Positions 3,858-58,699 of a stretch of DNA of 64,000 nucleotides are shown here, in pieces. The notes under the pieces were generated by a model, which did no database searches, was not told the origin of the DNA, and worked only from the letters and a program-made list of their open reading frames with translations. Position numbers and translations under genes: made by a program. How positions within the stretch are numbered: position 1 is the stretch's first letter; every line of letters starts with the position of its first letter. Source of the stretch: Aliiroseovarius sp. F20344 (lineage in GTDB: Bacteria > Pseudomonadota > Alphaproteobacteria > Rhodobacterales > Rhodobacteraceae); contig NZ_JALKBG010000003.1 of the NCBI RefSeq assembly GCF_023016155.1, positions 434,001-498,000 on the forward strand, written 5' to 3'.

Positions 3858-4736
3858 ATGCTTAATCGCCACGCGGCCGCTTTCGGTATCGCCCTTTCGC
3901 TGACATTCGGCGCACCAGGCTTCGCGCAGGAAACTGCATCAGAAGACACTATGCCCAAGGTTGAGGTTCAGGCTGACACCGTTCTTGCAACCGTAAATGG
4001 CGAAGAAATCACCGTCTCGCACGTGATTGCTGCCCGTCAAGGGTTGGCTCAACAGTTCCAAACCCTGCCAGACGACGTTTTGTTCCCTGGCTTGATCGAC
4101 CAGTTAATCCAGCAAACCGTCCTTGGTCAGGCTGTTGAAGAAATCAGCCGTCGCGGCGAAATCATTTTAGAAAATCAACGTCGTGAAATCGCGGCTGCCG
4201 AAAAAGTTGACGGAATCGTTGCAGATGCTGTGACGGACGATGCCCTTAAGGCTGCTTATGATGCCAAATATGCAAATGCCGAACCGACCAAGGAATTCAG
4301 CGCCGCGCATATTCTTGTCGCGACCGAGGATGAAGCCAAGGATTTGATCACCAAACTTGGAGGTGGTGCGGATTTCGCGGAACTGGCGAAAGAGTTTTCT
4401 ACCGGACCGTCTGGCCCGAATGGTGGCGAACTGGGATGGTTTGGCCCCGGCATGATGGTGAAGCCATTTGAAGATGCCGCAATGGCTTTGGGTAAAGGCG
4501 AAATTTCGGCCCCGGTTCAGACGCAGTTTGGCTGGCACGTCGTCAAACTGAACGACACCCGCATGGTTGGCGCCCCCGAATTGGATGAGGTGCGTGCAGA
4601 ACTGGCCGCGCAAATTGAAAACGACGCTGTGGAAGCAGCCCTGCAAACCCTGCTGGAAGGCGCAACAATCGAGCGTACGGATCTTGAAGGGATCGACCCT
4701 GCTGTCACACGTGATATGACACTGCTGGACAACTGA
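3858..4736 (+). CDS. Periplasmic parvulin-type peptidylprolyl isomerase
   Basis: This is a PpiC/SurA-type prolyl isomerase assisting folding of exported proteins. I start it at the ATG at 3858, preceded by AAAGGA at 7 bases; the frame is open further upstream but that part is not protein-like. The resulting 292-residue protein has a signal peptide (hydrophobic to about residue 23, ending GFAQ), an N-terminal SurA-like helical region with TVNGEEITVSHVI (residues 45-57), and one parvulin domain at about 146-240 (EFSAAHILVATED, GELGWFGPGMMVKPFEDA, TQFGWHVVKLND). It is divergent from secA and sits 15 bases before argJ, so it is probably co-transcribed with it. Close relatives are annotated as PrsA/PpiC-like; a lipobox is not seen. 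Confidence 0.92.
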   Translation: MLNRHAAAFGIALSLTFGAPGFAQETASEDTMPKVEVQADTVLATVNGEEITVSHVIAARQGLAQQFQTLPDDVLFPGLIDQLIQQTVLGQAVEEISRRGEIILENQRREIAAAEKVDGIVADAVTDDALKAAYDAKYANAEPTKEFSAAHILVATEDEAKDLITKLGGGADFAELAKEFSTGPSGPNGGELGWFGPGMMVKPFEDAAMALGKGEISAPVQTQFGWHVVKLNDTRMVGAPELDEVRAELAAQIENDAVEAALQTLLEGATIERTDLEGIDPAVTRDMTLLDN

Positions 4737-4751
4737 TCGCAGAGGGCAGAC

Positions 4752-6053
4752 ATGGGCAAGACGGCGAAAATCAAGAAGCTGAAAAAGAAGGTCGCGAAGC
4801 TGAAGGCCAAATTGGTAAAGGCTCACGACCACACGCATAAGGTTTCGCCGCTTGCCCCAGCAAGCTTTCCTGACCTGCCCGTCATAGCGGGGGCACGATT
4901 TTCCGCAGTTAAGGCAGGCGTGAAATACAAAGATCGGCTAGATGTCATGCTGGCCGAGCTTCAACCCGGCACAACGATGGCAGGTGTTTTCACAACATCC
5001 GCCACACGTTCTGCCCCGGTTCTGGATTGTCAGGCCAAACTGGGCAAAGCGTCTGACAAAGGCGCTGCTATTCTTGTGAATGCAGGCAACTCCAATGCGT
5101 TCACTGGCGCGGCTGGCGATGGTTCGGTCGAGGCGATAACGTCGGCAGTGTCCAAGGCATTGCAGGTTCCACAAGACCGCGTGTTCACAGCATCCACTGG
5201 CGTTATCGGGGAACCGCTTCCTCACAACCGGATCACCGACAAAATCGACGAACTTAAGGGCCTTTTGGTTCCCGACGCCATGGAGGATGCAGCGCAGGCG
5301 ATCCGCACCACCGACACATTCGCCAAAGGCGCGAAGGCCGAAGTGAAAATCGGGGATCGCATTGTGCATATCGCGGGCATCGCCAAGGGCTCAGGCATGA
5401 TTGCGCCGGATATGGCGACCATGCTGGTGTTCATCTTCACGGATGCTCTGATTGATCAGGGCGATCTGCAAGCCATGCTTTCGGATCTGAACGAAGACAG
5501 CTTCAATGCCATCACGGTGGACAGCGACACTTCAACATCAGATACGCTTCTCCTAGCCGCAACCGGGGCATCCGAGGTTAGGGTGGATCAAGACAATGCC
5601 GCGTTCCGCGCCGCGCTGGACGACGTCATGCTGGATTTGGCCCATCAGGTTGTGCGCGACGGTGAGGGTGCCACGAAGTTTGTCGAGGTCCGCGTGACCG
5701 GCGCAAAATCAGATGCCGACGCTAAGGTCCATGCGCTGTCCATTGCCAACTCGCCTTTGGTGAAAACCGCCGTGGCTGGAGAGGACCCCAACTGGGGTCG
5801 CGTTGTCATGGCAATTGGTAAATCCGGGGCCTATGCAGACCGCGATCTGCTGACCATTCGTTTCGGGGATATCTTAGTCGCTGAAAAAGGCTGGGTCTCA
5901 CCGAATTACCACGAGGATGCGGGGGCCGCTTATATGCAGCAAGATGATTTGCTGATTGATGTGGATCTGGGGGTCGGCAACGGCAAAGCCACCGTCTGGA
6001 CTTGCGACCTGACCCACGCTTACATCCAGATCAACGCGGATTATCGGTCGTGA
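4752..6053 (+). CDS. argJ: Bifunctional glutamate N-acetyltransferase/N-acetylglutamate synthase ArgJ
   Basis: ArgJ transfers acetyl from N-acetylornithine to glutamate in the cyclic arginine pathway. The protein shows the self-cleavage site in KGSGMIAPDMATML, where the family is cut before the Thr to give alpha and beta chains, and the conserved NAGNSNAFTG and GEDPNWGRVVMA segments. GAGGG six bases before the ATG supports the start. Unusually, the first ~27 residues are a lysine-rich helix-like extension (KIKKLKKKVAKLKAKLVKA) before the normal start of the fold (SPLAP, FPDLP). argG is also in this window (54 kb). The following mutT gene overlaps the stop codon. Confidence 0.96.
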   Translation: MGKTAKIKKLKKKVAKLKAKLVKAHDHTHKVSPLAPASFPDLPVIAGARFSAVKAGVKYKDRLDVMLAELQPGTTMAGVFTTSATRSAPVLDCQAKLGKASDKGAAILVNAGNSNAFTGAAGDGSVEAITSAVSKALQVPQDRVFTASTGVIGEPLPHNRITDKIDELKGLLVPDAMEDAAQAIRTTDTFAKGAKAEVKIGDRIVHIAGIAKGSGMIAPDMATMLVFIFTDALIDQGDLQAMLSDLNEDSFNAITVDSDTSTSDTLLLAATGASEVRVDQDNAAFRAALDDVMLDLAHQVVRDGEGATKFVEVRVTGAKSDADAKVHALSIANSPLVKTAVAGEDPNWGRVVMAIGKSGAYADRDLLTIRFGDILVAEKGWVSPNYHEDAGAAYMQQDDLLIDVDLGVGNGKATVWTCDLTHAYIQINADYRS

Positions 6054-12274: not shown

Positions 12275-12442
12275 CTACTCGTAGACAGGGGCAGCAGATG
12301 AGCCCTTTACGAGATTGATCCCGTGCAGACAGTCGCTTTTGTTGCGGTAGCCCTCTGCAGAATCAGCAACGATATTTCCATTTGATGATTTCAAGCGCCA
12401 GCGCCAGTCACCTGCGAAGTCTTTATAGACAAAGTAGTGCAT
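12275..12442 (-). CDS. YegP/DUF1508 family small protein (55 aa)
   Basis: The minus strand encodes 55 residues starting MHYFVYKDFAGDWRWRLKSS and containing NGNIVADSAEGYRNKSDCLHGI, which matches a single YegP (DUF1508) repeat: an aromatic-rich strand, W/F-R-L, NG-I-A-S and a terminal helix with GI..VK. AGGAG lies 7 bases before the ATG. E. coli YegP carries two such repeats; this is a one-repeat form. Function of the family is unknown; some members are stress-associated. It is followed by a strong hairpin and stands alone. Confidence 0.8.
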   Translation of the reverse strand: MHYFVYKDFAGDWRWRLKSSNGNIVADSAEGYRNKSDCLHGINLVKGSSAAPVYE

Positions 12443-12534
12443 ATCAGATCTCCTGTATGCGTTTCAGAAGTGCCGATTAGTGCTTGACGGAGTCCAACAA
12501 TCCGTGAGATTCTCACTTTGTCTATACAAGACTG

Positions 12535-12593
12535 CCGTCGCACCAACGACGGTTAAGGCGCTCACCGAATCGCTAAACAGGTGAGCGCCTTAA
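12535..12593. other. Two abutting perfect hairpins
   Basis: CCGTCG-caccaa-CGACGG (12535-12552) is followed without a gap by a 14-bp perfect inverted repeat (arms 12553-12566 and 12580-12593, 13-base loop). A third small palindrome sits at 12504-12516. They lie 94 bases beyond the 3' end of the iminopeptidase gene and upstream of the yegP-like gene on the same strand. They could be terminator/processing structures or part of a non-coding RNA. The rest of 12443-12686 shows nothing else I can support. Confidence 0.6.
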
Positions 12594-12686
12594 GTTTAAA
12601 CAACAAGAGCAAAACGAGTCCACCCTTCGACTATGCAAAGCCGCTTTATTTAGTAGTCTCTTGAACAAAGCGCACTACAAATGGTG

Positions 12687-13676
12687 CTACACCCCCAACG
12701 CCTCGCGCTGAGTCTCCAAGCGTTCCATTGTCAACACCAGCTCATCCGCGATACCACGTTCGGACAGGGCGTGCCCCGCAAGATGGATCATCCGCAGTTC
12801 GGACGACGGCCAGCGTTGGTGAAGTTCCCACGCCATTCTGGGTGGGCAAATCATATCGTGGCGTCCCTGCACAATCGTTCCGGGGATATGCGAGATCCGG
12901 CCCATATCGCGGAGGATCTTGCCATCTTCGTCTAAGAACGCGCTGTGGCGGAAATAGTGGTTTTCAAGCCGGGCAAAGGCGCGGGCGTATTCGGTCGGGC
13001 TGTCTATGATCGCACCCGCATTCTGGATCGAGGCCAGCGCGTTTTCCCATTCGGTCCAAGCGCGGGCGAATCGCGTTTCCTCGCCATAGTTTCCAGAAAA
13101 CAGTCGCCGGTGATAGGCGCTGATCATATCGTGGCGTTCTTCATCCGGGACCAGTTTTTCAAATCGATCCCAAAGCTCGGGCCAGAACCGCCCAGCGCCG
13201 CCGCCATAGAACCAATCCAACTCGGACTTAGTGGCAAGGAAAACACCGCGCAGAACCAGATGGGCCACGCGCACAGGATGTGACTGCGCATAGACAAGCG
13301 CGAGGGTTGCCCCCCAGCTGCCGCCAAACACAATCCAACGGTCGATGCCCAAGGTCGCGCGAATTTGTTCGATGTCACGCACCAGATGCCACGTCGTGTT
13401 CGCATCAATACTGGCGTGCGGACGTGACCGCCCACAGCCGCGTTGGTCAAACAAGATGATATGGTATCGCTTGGGATCGAAGAAACGGCGCATGGCGGGG
13501 GACGACCCGCCGCCCGGACCACCGTGGAGCACAACAACCGGAATGCCATCCGGGTTGCCGCTTTGCTCAACATAAACCTTGTGACCGTCGCCCACATCCA
13601 GCATATGCCGATCAAACGGGTCGATCGGGGGAAAGAGCCGTGCGGCTGCGCTGTTTTTTCCTGCGGCCTTATCCAT
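12687..13676 (-). CDS. pip: Proline iminopeptidase (alpha/beta hydrolase, S33)
   Basis: Releases N-terminal proline from peptides in the cytosol. The 329-residue protein has the S33 signature: HGGPGGGSSP at 51-60 (oxyanion region), FDQRGCGRSRPH, nucleophile Ser120 in GGSWGATLAL, the acid in VQGRHDMICP and the His in HLAGHALSE. I use the ATG at 13676, preceded by AGAGGG, rather than an upstream in-frame start that would add residues unlike the family. It is divergent from ubiG with a 53-base spacer. Confidence 0.93.
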   Translation of the reverse strand: MDKAAGKNSAAARLFPPIDPFDRHMLDVGDGHKVYVEQSGNPDGIPVVVLHGGPGGGSSPAMRRFFDPKRYHIILFDQRGCGRSRPHASIDANTTWHLVRDIEQIRATLGIDRWIVFGGSWGATLALVYAQSHPVRVAHLVLRGVFLATKSELDWFYGGGAGRFWPELWDRFEKLVPDEERHDMISAYHRRLFSGNYGEETRFARAWTEWENALASIQNAGAIIDSPTEYARAFARLENHYFRHSAFLDEDGKILRDMGRISHIPGTIVQGRHDMICPPRMAWELHQRWPSSELRMIHLAGHALSERGIADELVLTMERLETQREALGV

Positions 13677-27942: not shown

Positions 27943-28775
27943 ACCCCTAAGACCGCATGGCGCAGGGCATCATCCACTTGTGGACGCATGCCAAACCAGC
28001 GCTCAAAGCCGGGAACAGCTTGGTGAAGCAACATCCCAAGCCCATCGACGACGTGACAGCCCGCAGCCTCGGCTTGTTTAAGGAAATCTGTTTTCAGCGG
28101 CGTGTAGACCAAATCGTTCACGACCGCCCCACGTTTTAGCCCATCCAAAGGCACGCGGAACTCTGGCTTTCCGGTCATGCCCAAAGATGACGTGTTCACC
28201 ACGGTCACCGCATCATCAAGCATGTTTCCCGCCTTGACCCAGTCATACACCACGATCCGCGCGCCAAATTCTGCGCGAAGAGCATCTGCGCGGGCGCGGG
28301 TTCGGTTGGACAGGCGGATTTCGGGAACACCAAGTTCGATCAGCGACGCCAGAATAGCGCGTGCTGCTCCGCCCGCGCCGAAAACAGCGGCTGGCCCGGT
28401 TTCCGGGGCCCAATCGGGAGCGGATTGACGCAAGTTTTGTGTAAACCCATATCCATCTGTGTTGTCTGCGTGGATCTTGCCATCTTCACGGAAAATCAGC
28501 GTATTCGCCGCCCCGATCAATGCCGCGCGATCCGTAACGATGTCTGCCAATTTCAACACGGCTTCTTTGTGCGGAATGGTGACATTCAGCCCAACGAAAC
28601 CGGCCTTTGGAAGCGTCCGAATGATCGTTTCCAAATCATCCAGTTCTACCCGCATCGGAATATAGTGACCGGGTAACCCCATCGCGCGCAGCCAATGACC
28701 GTGCAGTCTTGGAGACAACGAGTGTTCAATCGGGTTTCCAATGACGCCCGCCAGGGGAATTCGTGTGTCGCTCAT
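27939..28775 (-). CDS. aroE: Shikimate dehydrogenase
   Basis: NADPH-dependent reduction of 3-dehydroshikimate in aromatic amino acid synthesis. The 278-residue protein shows [20 protein letters not shown], the catalytic Lys in [18 protein letters not shown], and the nucleotide motif [19 protein letters not shown]. Overlaps maf upstream and coaE downstream by 4 bases each. Confidence 0.97.
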
Positions 28776-29371
28776 ATCTTCAGATCTCCTCGCACGATCA
28801 GATATGACAGAAGCTCGGTCAGGGGCAAACCCAACACGTTGAAATAGTCGCCATCCACCTTAGCAAACAGGCGCACGCCCTCTTCTTCCAACTTATAGGC
28901 CCCGACAGAATGACGGATGCTTTCCCAGTTTCGATCTACATAGTCTTCAATGTAATCTGTTGATAAATCTCGCATTTTAAGGCGCACCAAGCCCACATGT
29001 CGCCAGATCGGCTTTCCATCTTCATACAGAACAGCAGCGGATAACAGCCGATGGGCCTTGCCGGACATCGCAGCAAGCTGCACGCGCGCGTCTTCGGGAT
29101 CATTTGGCTTTGAAAGAACCTTTTGATCCAGCTCGGCCACTTGGTCACAGCCCAATACCAAAGCACCAGGATGTTTCTCGCTGATCTTGCGGGCTTTGAA
29201 CTCGGCCAACGCATCTGCAAGGTCGCGTGGGCTTGCCCCTTCTGCTTCAAGCGAGGCGCGGATCATTTCTTCATCGATACGGGCAGGGATCACCTCAAAC
29301 TCAATCGCTGCATTTCGAAGAAGATCAGCACGGATTTGCGAGGCAGACGCCAAGATCAGGGAAGCGGTCAT
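28772..29371 (-). CDS. maf: Maf-like nucleotide pyrophosphatase
   Basis: Maf/YhdE/YceF family proteins hydrolyse modified or non-canonical nucleotides. The 199-residue product has ILASASQIRADLL (motif variant of ASxSPRR), FKARKISEKHPGALVLGCDQVAEL with the catalytic Asp, and the late HSVGAYKLEEEG and FNVLGLPLTELL. ATG at 29371 is preceded by AGGG at 8 bases; a longer frame upstream is in the DnaA-box region and is not coding. First gene of maf-aroE-coaE-dnaQ and the left border of the putative origin. Confidence 0.93.
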   Translation of the reverse strand: MTASLILASASQIRADLLRNAAIEFEVIPARIDEEMIRASLEAEGASPRDLADALAEFKARKISEKHPGALVLGCDQVAELDQKVLSKPNDPEDARVQLAAMSGKAHRLLSAAVLYEDGKPIWRHVGLVRLKMRDLSTDYIEDYVDRNWESIRHSVGAYKLEEEGVRLFAKVDGDYFNVLGLPLTELLSYLIVRGDLKI

Positions 29372-29765
29372 ATGATAACCCTGTGGAAAAACTCTGTGTA
29401 ATCCTGTTCTGGAATCAGCAGATAACTCGGCCCGTACCAGAACAGATGGATAAGTCAGACCTTTACTAAGATGCTTTTCACATTTCTTCCACTGTTGGTT
29501 TCTTACGTAAGGTGCCCGTGAACGAATCCCTTTCACGATATTTCATCCCGTGATTTATCCCCAGACTGAAAACCGCAGATCCTCTAAGAAATATACGTTT
29601 TCAGATTCCATCCAGAATCCAGAACTTCACTTATCCACCTGTGAACAATTTGCGGGATAGATCATTAATCCCCATTATCCACAGGTCCTAACAACAACAT
29701 CATCTTTCTTTCTTCTTTATTTATTTTATGAAGGTCGAAAGGGATCACGATAAAAAGGGCTAAGA
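29372..29765. other. oriC: Putative chromosomal replication origin region (oriC)
   Basis: A gene-free 394-base interval between divergent maf and hemJ. DnaA-box-like nonamers, by eye: TGTGGAAAA (29382-29390, minus), CTTTTCACA (29474-29482), TTATCCCCA (29555-29563), TTATCCACC (29631-29639) abutting TGTGAACAA (29640-29648, minus), and the perfect consensus TTATCCACA (29675-29683). Four GANTC sites lie at 29412, 29524, 29604 and 29615, the CcrM methylation target found at alphaproteobacterial origins. An AT-rich pyrimidine tract (29698-29730) could be the unwinding element. Flanking genes on both sides read away from it, and two perfect parS sites plus parAB lie within 7 kb. No other feature was seen here. 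Location is inferred, not proven. Confidence 0.72.
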
Positions 29766-30215
29766 ATGAGTGAGTTTCTATCTGACGCGTATTTCTGGAC
29801 GAAATCCCTTCATATCGTATCCGTGATCGCATGGATGGCGGGCTTGTTCTATCTGCCACGCCTGTTTGTTTATCATGTCGAGGTCGTAGGATCAGGCAAT
29901 GAAACGGATGAGCTGTTTCAAACGATGGAGCGTCGGCTTTTGAAAGCGATCATGAACCCGGCCATGATCAGCAGCTGGATTTTCGGGCTATGCCTAGTTT
30001 TCACACCCGGTGTGGTCGATTGGACTTTGATCTGGCCTTGGACCAAAGGTGCGTCAATTCTTGCGATGACATGGTTTCACATGTGGCTGGGGGGACGGCG
30101 CAAAGATTTCATGTCGGGGGCGAACACTCTGACCGGTCGACGCTATCGTATGATGAACGAAGTTCCGACGCTTTTGATGATCGTCATCGTGTTCTCGGTC
30201 GTGTTCAAGTACTGA
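29766..30215 (+). CDS. hemJ: Protoporphyrinogen oxidase HemJ (UPF0093)
   Basis: A 149-residue, four-helix membrane protein: SLHIVSVIAWMAGLFYLPRLFVYHVE holds the conserved His residues, AMISSWIFGLCLVFTP, ILAMTWFHMWLGGRRKDF, and RMMNEVPTLLMIVIVFSVVF. HemJ oxidises protoporphyrinogen IX to protoporphyrin IX just before ferrochelatase (hemH at 18.5 kb). It is the right border of the putative origin and precedes rho. Confidence 0.94.
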   Translation: MSEFLSDAYFWTKSLHIVSVIAWMAGLFYLPRLFVYHVEVVGSGNETDELFQTMERRLLKAIMNPAMISSWIFGLCLVFTPGVVDWTLIWPWTKGASILAMTWFHMWLGGRRKDFMSGANTLTGRRYRMMNEVPTLLMIVIVFSVVFKY

Positions 30216-32948: not shown

Positions 32949-34826
32949 GTGTTTCACGTGAAACATCTGGATTTCGATGTGATTGTTGTTGGGGGCGGGC
33001 ACGCTGGTGCCGACGCCGCCCATGCCGCTGCTCGTATGGGTGCAAAGACTGCACTTATCACATTACGCAAAGAAGATCTGGGTGTGATGTCCTGTAATCC
33101 AGCCATCGGCGGTCTTGGAAAAGGACATCTGGTGCGCGAAATTGATGCACTGGATGGCTTGATGGGCCGTGTCGCTGACCAAGCGGGTATACAATTTCGC
33201 TTGCTGAATCGGCGTAAGGGCCCAGCTGTACAAGGGCCGCGCGCACAAGCAGACCGTGCGATTTATCGCAAAGTCATGTCGTTGGAGATCTTATCGACTG
33301 AGGGATTGACCTTGGTTGAAGGCGAAACCACTGACCTTCTGATGGAAGGCGGTAGAGTTGGTGGCGTGGTTCTGGAAGACGGATCGCAGATTCGTGCACA
33401 CGCGGTCGTGCTGACCACGGGCACCTTCTTGCGCGGAATCATCCATATTGGGGATCAGCAAAAACAGGGCGGTCGCATGGGTGACAGGCCTTCAGTACGC
33501 TTGGCTGAACGCATTGATTCCTTTGGGCTTCCGCTTGGGCGTTTGAAAACCGGTACTCCTCCGCGCCTAAACGGGAAGACTATCAATTGGGATATTCTTG
33601 GTACACAGCCTGGTGACGATGATCCGACGATGTTTTCGTTCATGAACAAAACACCGTTTGCGCGTCAGATCTCGTGCGGAATTACGCATACGAATGCGAA
33701 AACCCATGACATCATTCGTGCAAATCTTGATCGTTCGGCCATGTATGGTGGGCAAATTGACGGTGTTGGCCCGCGTTATTGCCCCTCGATTGAAGACAAG
33801 GTTGTGCGATTTGCGGACAAGGAAAGCCATCAGGTGTTTCTTGAGCCCGAAAGCCTGAGTGATAACACGGTTTATCCGAATGGAATCAGTACATCTTTGC
33901 CCGTTGATGTGCAGGAAGACTATGTAAGATCGATTGAAGGCCTTGAAAACGTAGAGATTCTTCAGCCCGGATATGCGATTGAGTATGACTATGTCGACCC
34001 ACGCGCTTTAACCGAAACGCTAGCACTTCGGGATGTGCCTGGCCTTTATTTGGCAGGGCAGATTAACGGAACAACCGGTTATGAAGAGGCCGCTGCTCAG
34101 GGCCTGGTGGCCGGAACCAATGCAGCACTCGCGGCACAGGGCAGGGATCCTGTGATCTTCTCGCGCTCCAATTCCTATATCGGCGTGATGATTGACGACT
34201 TGATCACCCGTGGCGTGACTGAACCTTACCGAATGTTCACATCCCGCGCGGAGTATCGGCTTTCTTTGCGCGCCGACAATGCAGACCAGCGGCTGACACC
34301 GATCGGCATTGATCTGGGATTGGTTAAAGAAGCGCGGGAAGCGGTGTTTGAGGCCAAACAGGAAGCTCTGGCGCAAGTGAAACAACGGCTTACGCAAGCA
34401 ACATACACACCACAAGATATTGTGGGTCTTAATATAAAAGTGCGTATGGATGGTGTTCGTCGCACGGCTTATGAGCTTCTCGCTTTTCCTGATATGAGCT
34501 TCGAGAAGCTGACAAAGCTGGATCCAAGCCTGTCTGAGATTGACCACGATGTTCAGCTTCAAGTTGCCCGCGACGCGCTATATGCAAACTACATTGACCG
34601 TCAACAAAAGGACGTCGAAGCGCTGAAACGCGATGAGGCACAGATCATTCCCGAGGATTTTGACTATACGGGGTTAAGCGGGCTTTCAAATGAGCTCGCG
34701 TCGAAGCTTCAGGCTGCGCGACCCCGAACCTTGGCCCATGCAGGGCGGGTTGAGGGGATGACGCCGGCCGCGCTGACGCTGCTATTGTCGAAGATTCGCC
34801 AGTTTGAACGAAAGCGTAGTGCATGA
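32949..34826 (+). CDS. mnmG: tRNA uridine-5-carboxymethylaminomethyl(34) synthesis protein MnmG
   Basis: FAD-dependent partner of MnmE. Conserved parts: [21 protein letters not shown] (FAD), [36 protein letters not shown], and a C-terminal helical MnmE-binding domain. The start is unclear: in-frame GTG codons at 32934, 32949 and 32958 all precede the fold. I use 32949 ([11 protein letters not shown]) by analogy with relatives that begin MFHVKH; 32958 has the best-spaced GGAG (8 bases). The parS site sits exactly over these codons, so segregation DNA constrains the start region. Coupled by ATGA to rsmG. Confidence 0.96.
32950..32965. other. parS: parS centromere site 1 (inside mnmG start)
   Basis: TGTTTCACGTGAAACA, a perfect 16-base palindrome identical to the bacterial parS consensus bound by ParB. 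It codes FHVKH at the start of MnmG. It lies about 3.2 kb from the putative origin and 3.3 kb before parB. Confidence 0.93.
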
Positions 34827-35443
34827 ACCACGCAGAGTTTTTGCGTCACGTCGATGTTTCACGTGAAACATTCGAACGTTTCGATGCTTACGTTGCCCTT
34901 CTTAAGAAGTGGAACCCTGCGATCAATCTGGTCGCACCAAGCACGCTTTCCGAGATTTGGTCGCGCCACATTCTGGATTCTGCCCAGATATTTGAAATTG
35001 CCCCCAAGGGCAGCACAAATTGGTGTGATTTGGGGTCAGGCGGTGGCCTTCCGGCCGTTGTTGTCGCGATTATGGCGAAAGAAAGCGCGCCAGAGCTGAA
35101 AGTTACCTGTATTGAGAGCGACACACGAAAGGCGACCTTCTTGCGCACAGCCGCCCGTGAGCTTGAACTGCCACTTACCGTGATCGCGAAGCGGATTGAA
35201 AATGCGGAGCCACAGAATGCGGACGTACTGTCTGCGCGGGCATTGGCGTCATTGGACCGTCTGTGCGGCTTTGCTGAACAGCACTTGAAAGCGAGCGGAG
35301 TGGCAATCTTTCCCAAAGGCGAAAACTATCACCAGGAAATACAGGAAGCTCTTGAAAACTGGACGTTTCAGCTTGATACATATCCAAGCAAGACTCATCC
35401 AAACGCCTTTATTTTGAAGATCGGAGAAATCTCACGTGTCTGA
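34823..35443 (+). CDS. rsmG: 16S rRNA (guanine-527-N7)-methyltransferase RsmG
   Basis: Methylates G527 of 16S rRNA with SAM. The 206-residue protein has [33 protein letters not shown], the SAM motif [21 protein letters not shown], and [18 protein letters not shown]. Its N-terminus [11 protein letters not shown] is encoded by a parS site. Overlaps mnmG by 4 bases and parA by 8. Confidence 0.96.
34855..34870. other. parS: parS centromere site 2 (inside rsmG)
   Basis: A second perfect TGTTTCACGTGAAACA, coding VSRET at residues 12-16 of RsmG. It is 1.9 kb from site 1 and about 5.1 kb from the putative origin, immediately upstream of parA. Confidence 0.93.
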
Positions 35444-36227
35444 CCCAATCCAAGAACGCGGGCCGAAGATTATTGCCATCACCAACCAAAAAGGCGGTGT
35501 TGGAAAGACAACATCGACGATCAACCTTGGGGCGGCGCTGGCTGAAGCCGGGAAAAGCGTTTTGCTGATTGATCTTGATCCGCAGGGGAATGCCTCGACC
35601 GGATTGGGGATCTCAGCGGATGATCGCGACATGAGCACATATGACCTTCTATTGGAAGAGGCATCGATTCTTGAGGTGGTTCAGGAAACGCAGTTTAAGA
35701 ATCTGCTGATCTCACCCGCTACGACAGACCTTTCATCGGCGGATATTGAGTTGGTCTCGAACGAAAAGCGCAGCCACCTTTTGCGCGATGCACTGCGAGA
35801 TGTAGCGTTGGCCAAGTTAAACCTCGACTACATCTTGATTGATTGCCCACCATCCCTGAACCTTTTGACAGTGAATGCTTTGGTCGCGGCCGACAGCGTT
35901 CTGATCCCGCTGCAAAGTGAGTTTTTTGCGCTGGAAGGTTTGTCGCAGCTTCTGTTGACCGTTCGTGAGATTCGGCAAGCCGCTAATCCGGACCTTCGAA
36001 TCGAAGGTGTTGTGTTGACCATGTATGACAAACGCAACAACTTGTCCCGCCAGGTCGAAGCGGATGCCCGCGAGAATTTGGGAGAGTTGGTGTTTAAAAC
36101 CGTAATTCCGCGCAATGTGCGGGTCAGCGAGGCGCCCTCTTTCGCGCTTCCAGTGTTGATGTATGATCCGATGTCCAAGGGCAGCCAGGCCTATCGTGAT
36201 CTGGCAAAAGAGCTGATTAAACGATAG
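35436..36227 (+). CDS. parA: Chromosome partitioning ATPase ParA
   Basis: Deviant Walker-type ATPase that moves ParB-parS complexes. The 263-residue protein has the deviant Walker A KGGVGKTTSTIN (19-30), LLIDLDPQGNASTGLG, and DYILIDCPPSLNLLTVNAL. It starts at GTG 35436, overlapping rsmG by 8 bases, with GGAG upstream. parB follows 13 bases after the stop. Confidence 0.97.
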   Translation: MSDPIQERGPKIIAITNQKGGVGKTTSTINLGAALAEAGKSVLLIDLDPQGNASTGLGISADDRDMSTYDLLLEEASILEVVQETQFKNLLISPATTDLSSADIELVSNEKRSHLLRDALRDVALAKLNLDYILIDCPPSLNLLTVNALVAADSVLIPLQSEFFALEGLSQLLLTVREIRQAANPDLRIEGVVLTMYDKRNNLSRQVEADARENLGELVFKTVIPRNVRVSEAPSFALPVLMYDPMSKGSQAYRDLAKELIKR

Positions 36228-36240
36228 TCGGAGGCGCAGT

Positions 36241-37128
36241 ATGAGCAAGTCACAGAAAAATCGCGGTTTGGGACGCGGATTGTCAGCGCTGATGGCTGAT
36301 GTCGCAGTTGAAGAGCCGACTAAGGACGCATCGTCAGAGCCGCGTCGTGCTGATATGATGGTGCCGATCGAAAAGATCTCACCCAATCCGGAACAGCCGC
36401 GGCGTACCTTTACACAAGAACAGTTGGATGATTTAGCGGCGTCGATCAAAGAAAAAGGCGTCATTCAGCCACTTATCGTACGCCCAAAACCCCAATCTGA
36501 CGACGAGTATGAAATCGTTGCTGGCGAGCGTCGTTGGCGAGCGTCGCAAATGGCGAAACTACACCAAGTCCCTGTAGTTATTAGAGAATATAACGACACA
36601 GAGGCGCTGGAAGTTGCGATTATTGAGAACATTCAGCGCGCTGATCTGAATGCGATCGAAGAGGCGGCAGGCTATCGCGACCTGATGGACCGCTTTGGGC
36701 ATACACAAGAGAAAGTATCCGAAGCCCTTGGCAAAAGCCGCAGCTATATCGCCAACCTTCTTCGCCTTTTGAACCTTCCCGGGGACGTTCAGGCCTTTGT
36801 TCGCGATGGCAAGCTTTCCGCTGGGCACGCACGGACGCTGGTAACAGCCGAAAACCCGTCTGCTTTGGCGCGCGAGATCATCAGTAAGGGCCTGTCAGTG
36901 CGTGCAGCCGAGAAACTGGCAAAGGGTCCAAGCCTGTCAAAGCCCCGTCAGACAAACCCAAAGTCCGAAAAAGATGCTGATACCAAGGCGCTTGAGTCAG
37001 ATCTGTCCGCTGCCACAGGAATGAAGGTTCAGATCGATCATAAGGCTGGGGGTGAAGCTGGGACAGTTACCATTCGCTACCAGAGCTTGGATCAGCTGGA
37101 TGATATCTGCGGGAAGCTGTCCAGCTAA
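36241..37128 (+). CDS. parB: Chromosome partitioning protein ParB
   Basis: CTP-dependent DNA clamp that loads at parS. The 295-residue protein has the N-terminal RGLGRGLSALMADV helix, the CTP-binding GERRWR motif at 95-100, IIENIQRADLNAIEEA, a helix-turn-helix region (HTQEKVSEALGKSRSYIANLL) and a C-terminal dimerisation domain ending YQSLDQLDDICGKL. Convergent with hemW 3 bases away. Two cognate parS sites are upstream. Confidence 0.97.
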   Translation: MSKSQKNRGLGRGLSALMADVAVEEPTKDASSEPRRADMMVPIEKISPNPEQPRRTFTQEQLDDLAASIKEKGVIQPLIVRPKPQSDDEYEIVAGERRWRASQMAKLHQVPVVIREYNDTEALEVAIIENIQRADLNAIEEAAGYRDLMDRFGHTQEKVSEALGKSRSYIANLLRLLNLPGDVQAFVRDGKLSAGHARTLVTAENPSALAREIISKGLSVRAAEKLAKGPSLSKPRQTNPKSEKDADTKALESDLSAATGMKVQIDHKAGGEAGTVTIRYQSLDQLDDICGKLSS

Positions 37129-56931: not shown

Positions 56932-57246
56932 TCAGCACTTGGCCAGAAATTCGGATTTTGATTGGGAATAGGCATCGAAAACCGGCCCGAGCTGAATGGA
57001 ACTGACCTGACCCTGCGCAGCGGCCTGTTCGTTTTGCCCGCATATGTCGGACAGGTCACGAAACCCCAAGTTTAACGCCGATCCCTTCAGGAAATGCATG
57101 TCCTGTTCGTAGAGCTTTGGGTCGGGGCTGGCTTTAAGGCGTTCAATAACTTCTTCGACCTCCTCAAGAAAGATTTCGGCAATTTCACCAAAGTCTTCTT
57201 CGCCGATTTCATCCTTTAATTCGTTCACACGATTCCAATTGATCAT
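56932..57246 (-). CDS. Histidine phosphotransfer (Hpt) domain protein
   Basis: A 104-residue free Hpt domain. The phosphorylatable His51 is in DMHFLKGSALNLGFRDL, flanked by helices. It takes part in phosphorelays. The gene is divergent from the response regulator-phosphatase at 57404, suggesting they act together, which is inference. Its stop is 4 bases from that of ilvA. Confidence 0.9.
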   Translation of the reverse strand: MINWNRVNELKDEIGEEDFGEIAEIFLEEVEEVIERLKASPDPKLYEQDMHFLKGSALNLGFRDLSDICGQNEQAAAQGQVSSIQLGPVFDAYSQSKSEFLAKC

Positions 57247-57403
57247 TGCCCTCTCCTACACAGTTCGCAGGATCATGACTGAAGCCAGTTAACATACTGT
57301 TATAAATACACATCTATGAAAAATTTAGCTTTAAAGGGCTGTTAAATCGATTGCTCTAAGGCTGGGCCAAGATGTTATTTGCATATAGCGTTTTGGAGCA
57401 ATT

Positions 57404-58699
57404 TTGAGTGTAGCAGAATCATACAATACTGGGTCTCTCGACAGAGATTCCATGCTGGGCGAATCTGTTCGGACGGATTCTGTGCAGCGCATTTTGGTTG
57501 TTGATGACAGCCGCGCCCAGCGAAGTCTCATGTCGAAATCATTGTCCCGACAAGGTTATGAGGTTGAAGAAGCGGATTCGGGACTCGAGGCGTTGAAGCT
57601 TTTCGCATCACAAGAATTCGATTTGGTCCTGAGTGACTGGATGATGCCGGGCATGGATGGGTTGGAGCTGTGCAAAGCAATCCGTGCACACAAGTCTTCG
57701 CGATACGTCTATTTTATTCTGCTTACATCGAAAACTGACAAAGGCGCAGTTGCACGCGGTCTGGATGTGGGCGCTGACGATTTTCTGGCCAAGCCCTTCA
57801 ACCCCGATGAGCTTCGGGCGCGGATTGCTGCTGGCGGGCGCATCCTGTCGATGGAGCGTGAGCTGCAAGAAACCAACCGTCTTGTTTCATCGGCTCTGAC
57901 AGAGCTGAAGACGCTCTATGATTCGGTGGACCGTGATTTGGTCGAAGCGCGGAAGATGCAGCAGTCTTTGGTGCGGGAGTCTTTCCGTGATTGGGGCCGG
58001 GCCGAGGTATCGCTTCTATTGAAACCCTGCGGGCATGTTGGGGGTGATCTGGTTGGTTTCTTCGATGCCGGGGAAGACCATATCGCATTCTATTCAATTG
58101 ACGTGTCGGGGCATGGTATCGCGTCTGCGCTTCTGACGGCTCGATTGGCATCGTATCTTTCCGAAGGGTCACCCACGCACAACATTGCATTGATTGAAAA
58201 CGAGGACGGCAACCACAAACGACAACCACCCGAGATCGTGGCGGCGCAGTTAAACACGCTTTTGACCAAGGACATGTTGTCGGAACATTATTTCACGATG
58301 CTGTTTGGGTATCTGGATATGACCGCAGGCAAGGTGGAGTTCACACAATGCGGCCACCCCAATGCGGTGGTTCTTAACAGGTCTGGCCAGGCTCAGTTTG
58401 TTGGGCAAGGTGGTATGCCCATCGGGCTGATCTCGGCGGCTGAATTTGAGCGTCAAATCATGACGCTTCAACCCGGAGAGCGGCTGATCTTCTATTCGGA
58501 CGGCTTCACAGAATGCGAAGATACAAGTGGAAATCAGATTGAAGAACAAGGGTTTGGAGAAATTCTTGAGAAAAACAGTGGTCTGACGAATGACATGATG
58601 TTCGATGCCATGGTCTGGGATCTGGACCGGTTTGCTGGTGGCGAAGAGTTCGGTGACGATCTTTCCTGTGTGATGCTGACCTATAAATCACGCACATAG
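57404..58699 (+). CDS. Response regulator fused to SpoIIE/PP2C phosphatase (RsbU/RbaY-like)
   Basis: A 431-residue protein with an N-terminal receiver domain (about 28-145: ILVVDDSRAQR, phospho-acceptor Asp78 in LVLSDWMMPGMDG, LAKPFNPDELRARI), a coiled-coil linker, and a PP2C-type phosphatase (about 200-428: DVSGHGIASALLTARLASYL, FTQCGHPNAVVL, EFGDDLSCVML). Start is TTG 57404, 7 bases after GGAG. In Rhodobacter a protein of this architecture, RbaY, controls an anti-sigma-like switch for stationary phase and gene transfer agent; homology here is inferred. Confidence 0.9.
   Translation: MSVAESYNTGSLDRDSMLGESVRTDSVQRILVVDDSRAQRSLMSKSLSRQGYEVEEADSGLEALKLFASQEFDLVLSDWMMPGMDGLELCKAIRAHKSSRYVYFILLTSKTDKGAVARGLDVGADDFLAKPFNPDELRARIAAGGRILSMERELQETNRLVSSALTELKTLYDSVDRDLVEARKMQQSLVRESFRDWGRAEVSLLLKPCGHVGGDLVGFFDAGEDHIAFYSIDVSGHGIASALLTARLASYLSEGSPTHNIALIENEDGNHKRQPPEIVAAQLNTLLTKDMLSEHYFTMLFGYLDMTAGKVEFTQCGHPNAVVLNRSGQAQFVGQGGMPIGLISAAEFERQIMTLQPGERLIFYSDGFTECEDTSGNQIEEQGFGEILEKNSGLTNDMMFDAMVWDLDRFAGGEEFGDDLSCVMLTYKSRT

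Follow-up and report, generated by a model that had tools for sequence, protein, structure and literature searches.

Does the short gene-free interval between maf and hemJ in Aliiroseovarius sp. F20344 hold the origin from which the chromosome is replicated? The initial annotation of the 64,000-nucleotide stretch of DNA that was analysed here (the window) proposed a putative chromosomal origin at this place, and this proposal is supported by box density, the GC-skew minimum, parS and parAB, and synteny. The interval at 29372-29765 is almost certainly the DnaA-dependent chromosomal origin (oriC). This view is based on the combination of a cluster of DnaA boxes, a T-rich tract of low stability, the skew minimum, diverging flanking genes, parS and parAB in the vicinity, and a length and box offsets that are conserved.

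The maf-hemJ interval and its DnaA boxes

The interval comprises 394 bp without genes, has a GC content of 0.40, is flanked by maf on the minus strand and hemJ on the plus strand, and its sequence has a single BLAST place in the genome. Profile matches identify the two flanks, whose frames start at 29371 and 29766, and both neighbours read away from the interval, as had been described (Table 1). The mechanical list of open reading frames opens the maf frame at GTG 29536. We preferred the ATG at 29371 as the start of maf, because the Maf profile match begins there and the starts of same-genus relatives coincide with it.

Six DnaA boxes were counted in the interval, two of them exact matches to TTWTNCACA and four that deviate from it at one base (29474+, 29555+, 29631+ and 29640-), in agreement with the one perfect and about five near-consensus boxes claimed at the outset. 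The chance expectation was a mean of 0.98, and none of 400 Markov-1 resamplings of the interval reached six, so that the interval has the box cluster beyond chance that is looked for in a bacterial DnaA-dependent oriC. It was also the densest cluster in the 404 kb scanned in 50-bp steps (the window and a further 17 stretches from contig C3), the maximum elsewhere being four boxes per 394 bp; together with two more 20-kb stretches, this is the part of the 3,357-kb genome that the near-consensus scan covered. Genome-wide (3.36 Mb), exact TTATCCACA occurs in 14 copies and exact TTWTNCACA 119 times (100 of the 119 places listed). The two boxes at 29631-29648 had been called abutting and divergent; they do abut, but they face each other and are thus convergent. 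The position at 29555 carries either TTATCCCCA or TTATCCACA in 17 of the 19 same-genus gaps, G009 and G008 having diverged, and the AATCCCC of the weak box at 29666 is unchanged in all 19. Among the best-conserved parts of these gaps are AATCCCC, the final box that follows it and then the T-rich tract. DnaA-trios are not claimed for the window, because the four motifs found (spacer 15) had a p-value of 0.27 against shuffles; this test was run on 78 gaps with the BUS rule as given in PMC8287927.

The AT-rich tract mentioned in the initial annotation was confirmed as low-stability T-rich DNA at 29689-29733. According to nearest-neighbour stability, the least stable 40 bp of the interval are located at 29689-29729, and lower values were found in the window at one place for lengths of 40 or 50 bp, near 57.2 kb, and at two places for 60 bp. 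By computed stability, the interval therefore contains the low-stability AT-rich element adjoining the boxes that is typical of an oriC. On this basis, DnaA-ATP would fill the boxes, beginning with the paired and perfect sites at 29631-29683, and would open the T-rich tract. DnaB would then be loaded, two forks would depart in opposite directions, and the new origins would be moved apart by ParB bound to parS.

Table 1. Features in and around the maf-hemJ interval (positions in the window).
Feature	Position	Strand	Basis
Candidate chromosomal origin interval, divergent maf/hemJ gap	29372..29765		profile matches of flanks, box count, genus comparison
maf flank	28772..29371	-	TIGR00172, 127.9 bits, cut-off 117.15
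hemJ flank	29766..30215	+	TIGR00701, E 2.8e-39, 134.4 bits, slightly below cut-off 138.05
DnaA box TTTTCCACA, exact TTWTNCACA, 10 bp from maf start	29382..29390	-	box at equal offset (11) in 19/19 same-genus gaps
Weak DnaA-box-like site CTTTTCACA, one mismatch	29474..29482	+	not conserved across genus alignment
Near-consensus DnaA box TTATCCCCA, one mismatch	29555..29563	+	motif scan
Abutting convergent box pair TTATCCACC / TTGTTCACA	29631..29639 / 29640..29648	+ / -	one mismatch each; scan and genus alignment
Weak box TAATCCCCA, two mismatches, direct tandem with 29675 box	29666..29674	+	motif scan
Perfect DnaA box TTATCCACA	29675..29683	+	exact TTWTNCACA
T-rich presumed DNA unwinding element	29689..29733		nearest-neighbour stability; conserved CATCATCTTT and T-rich tract
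Four GANTC (CcrM-type) sites	29412, 29524, 29604, 29615 (span 29412..29619)		motif search
parS, exact, within mnmG/gidA frame	32950..32965	+	motif search
parS, exact, within rsmG/gidB frame	34855..34870	+	motif search
parA-family and parB-family genes	35436..37128	+	best ParA model below cut-off, ParB domain above

GC skew and the partitioning locus

A skew minimum elsewhere on the chromosome would speak against an origin between maf and hemJ; as far as a draft in nine contigs permits, this check favoured the gap. The cumulative GC-skew minimum of the window was found at 29715-29729, within the gap, and the interval thus carries the skew minimum of an oriC as far as it can be read from samples of a draft genome. 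On contig C3 (736 kb), the 11 samples taken to the left of the window were all zero or negative, several of them being near zero, and the six taken to its right were all positive; these values are samples from a draft in nine contigs and do not form a closed curve. Since the genome is in nine contigs, the skew of relatives was examined as well. In the same-genus genome G010, the minimum over the local 40 kb is at 70091, within that genome's own maf-hemJ gap. Among the samples from its 3.21-Mb main contig, the maximum is found near 1.7 Mb, approximately opposite the minimum if this contig is taken as circular; three samples on the positive arm were negative, and on the negative arm one sample close to the origin was positive. 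G021 represents a different genus of the family and is assembled in one contig. Its local minimum, taken over 20 kb, is at a distance of about 1.6 kb from the gap, and the maximum among its samples occurs near 1.6 Mb, again approximately opposite, with three negative samples on the positive arm and one positive sample on the negative arm.

The nearby parS and parAB that had been reported were recovered (Table 1). A genome-wide search for parS at up to two mismatches gave only two matches, which lie at distances of 3.2 and 5.1 kb from the gap; the reversed pattern, which served as a control, gave one match per strand. The dnaA gene is located about 150 kb from the interval, and there is no skew switch at dnaA.

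Conservation of the gap

hemJ was found in 56 of 61 genomes, which led to 30 loci, 19 from the same genus (own genome included) and 11 from the same family. The gap measures 393-400 bp in all 19 same-genus genomes, the 400 bp of G013 counting its start codon, and the mean identity is 0.62. Among the 11 same-family loci, G022, where a maf within 1.5 kb of hemJ was not found, was excluded, as were G031 and G032 for a misplaced maf start, and the eight usable gaps are 384-414 bp long. In the wider set of named loci, maf stands beside hemJ in 77 of 80 (median gap 413 bp, CV 0.041, with alternative GTG/TTG starts adding about 12 bp to some of the gaps); no maf was found in L161 or in L129 and L145, where the upstream sequence is short. 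At up to one mismatch, at least three boxes are present in 75 of these 77 gaps, and an exact box in 57. Of the 77 loci, 36 also had a recognisable hemJ-rho gap, and at these 36 the length CV was 0.032 for the maf-hemJ gap versus 0.12 for the hemJ-rho gap. The placement of the outer boxes was followed in the 62 loci outside the genus set (15 loci, including the MAGs L119 and L124 that were placed by similarity). A minus-strand box near maf (at most one mismatch to TTATCCACA) is present in 41 of the 62 and on the wrong strand in none; the plus-strand box before hemJ showed a weaker contrast, with 42 loci versus 21 on the wrong strand.

Alternative explanations

Could the gap be no more than a region of divergent promoters serving maf and hemJ, at which DnaA acts as a transcription factor? 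Both genes start at the gap edges, and one box is located 10 bp from the maf start, as would fit such a region. Against this stand the skew minimum inside the gap, both here and in G010, the length fixed at 393-400 bp in 19 of 19 species although the mean identity is 0.62, and the lack of any denser box cluster in the 404 kb scanned. We therefore consider it highly improbable that the gap serves as a promoter only; a promoter role may exist alongside the origin role. There is next to no likelihood, in our judgement, that dnaA or another box cluster marks the true origin and that the gap is a DnaA-titration site of the datA/DARS sort. Such an explanation could draw on a second cluster of three boxes at C8:1149739-1149784, but the skew changes neither there nor at dnaA, the 20-kb stretches around dnaA and this cluster hold at most three boxes per 394 bp versus six in the gap, and it is the maf-hemJ gap that has parS and parAB nearby. 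An origin linked to dnaA was accordingly rejected on the distance and the lack of a skew switch, and the cluster on C8 on the lack of a skew change.

The C8 cluster (L230:9739-9784) is an observation in its own right. It consists of three boxes in 46 bp, two being exact TTATCCACA and one mismatched, and sits between miaA-like and AraC-like frames that were named from their translations. It represents a possible datA/DARS-like site.

GANTC sites

The four GANTC sites in about 210 bases that had been pointed out were all retrieved (Table 1). The 404 kb scanned contain three other clusters of at least four GANTC within 212 bp, and the cluster in the interval is therefore uncommon, not unique. The window as a whole is poor in GANTC, with 89 sites versus 303 expected. 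The four sites are kept in seven of seven species of one Aliiroseovarius subclade, which was chosen after the alignment had been seen, one site varying in its middle base; column conservation alone keeps such a site at a frequency of 0.28. The remaining 12 same-genus species have no or one GANTC in the gap. The most extreme of the 77 loci was that of Donghicola mangrovi (L175), with 11 GANTC in a 397-bp gap versus 0.82 expected from the surroundings, and two Pseudooceanicola gaps have five each versus 1.3 expected. Over all 77 gaps, 102 GANTC were counted, where 58.9 were expected. When the five subclade loci (L113-L117) and L175 are set aside, 71 remain versus about 55, indicating that the excess is largely due to six loci. 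GANTC as a general mark of the origin was rejected on these grounds, and also because 26 of the 77 gaps have none.

The genes for RAMA (CcrM-type) and GcrA are present in the genome. For gene regulation in Rhodobacterales, PMC8116508 leans against control by GANTC. We tentatively mention the idea, which we regard as rather unlikely, that some Rhodobacteraceae origins gained CcrM-type GANTC clusters whose hemimethylation, once the fork has passed, may delay initiation or shift its timing, replacing the control by CtrA that is seemingly lacking. In this sense, the GANTC clusters are a small lead on the control of initiation without CtrA sites.

GANTC sites also cluster elsewhere in the window. 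Six are located at 12360-12714, both inside and next to the gap that separates a rimP-like from a hydrolase-like frame, and six at 57416-57586, within a plus-strand response-regulator/phosphatase-like frame. The gap at 57246-57404 separates the latter frame from an Hpt-like frame on the minus strand. It contains the only TTAA-N7-TTAA CtrA motif of the window (57331-57345), one such motif being also present in 21 of 100 shuffles, and it is near this gap that the window's DNA is least stable. All these frames were named from their translations.

Relation to known origins

The initial annotation stated that the interval differs from the hemE-flanked Caulobacter origin. This holds true for the flanking genes, but not for the idea of a separate origin, as synteny points to one place from which hemE and a PPPase gene were removed. 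For other families of the class, 18 loci were examined; a hemJ match was present in 21 class genomes, and three loci near contig ends were left out. hemE lies at most 2 kb upstream of hemJ in 15 of them, and 11 of the 18 also have maf at the far end. In 11 of the 15 loci, the stretch richest in boxes immediately precedes hemE, three of those 11 having only two boxes there. Among the 11 maf-hemE gaps, six (L198, L200, L201, L202, L207 and L209) have the PPPase gene (PF03618, COG1806-type) beside maf, and three have a length of only 316-372 bp, which leaves no room for this gene; two further gaps were unassigned. The ORF beside maf has no family match in L203 and is a read-through into maf in L208. 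In L194, which is without hemE, a ferrochelatase gene lies between maf and hemJ. Within the own family, G019/L212 still has the PPPase gene beside maf (3990-5238), with hemE away from hemJ, and this locus is an apparent intermediate in the loss of neighbours.

The simplest reading of this gene order is that the maf-hemJ gap is the alphaproteobacterial (Caulobacter) origin place, where the origin would have stayed and its neighbours hemE and PPPase would have left. The one intermediate suggests that within the family hemE was lost first and the PPPase gene later. Elsewhere in the class, the three short gaps show the PPPase gene to be missing while hemE remains. The maf-hemJ position would thereby be explained as the ancestral origin after loss of both classical neighbours, and the zero point of the chromosome would be fixed for the genus. 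In such genomes, a search for the origin should therefore not be directed at the surroundings of hemE or dnaA.

The Cori of Caulobacter crescentus occupies the equal syntenic place, with a maf side and a hemJ-rho-parAB side, an order around the origin that we presume for Caulobacter itself. In contrast to Cori, the present genome has hemE on contig C2, beside a hemC-like frame (named from its translation), and a search of the genome for a PPPase/COG1806 gene found none. PMC1914354 describes Cori, in the hemE-COG1806 gap, as likewise AT-rich with several DnaA boxes. Of the Cori-type features given there, the maf-hemJ gap lacks the hemE/COG1806 flanks, CtrA sites (two consensus motifs, no mismatch allowed) and the IHF site (one consensus, at most one mismatch). 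The origin of Hyphomonas neptunium likewise has two parS and parAB within several kb, but its marker-frequency maximum is near hemE, according to PMC6650430. Marker-frequency data have also been published for Cereibacter sphaeroides and Paracoccus strains (PMC13342612).

Among the literature matches listed there was no experimental origin for Aliiroseovarius, and the main text of PMC6699656, on 101 Rhodobacteraceae oriCs, contains neither 'hemE' nor 'Maf'. In Ketogulonicigenium vulgare Hbe602, oriC was predicted beside maf by Ori-Finder, and the adjacency of maf and oriC is conserved in Rhodobacteraceae according to DoriC entries, as stated in passages of PMC4793288. These passages do not include the hemJ side, the near-fixed gap length or the lineage-specific GANTC clusters. 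Since a maf-adjacent oriC is reported there as conserved in the family, the location and kind of the origin are already known for Rhodobacteraceae. The present interval shares with these origins the position in a gap that adjoins maf, near parAB, and is a well-supported new case.
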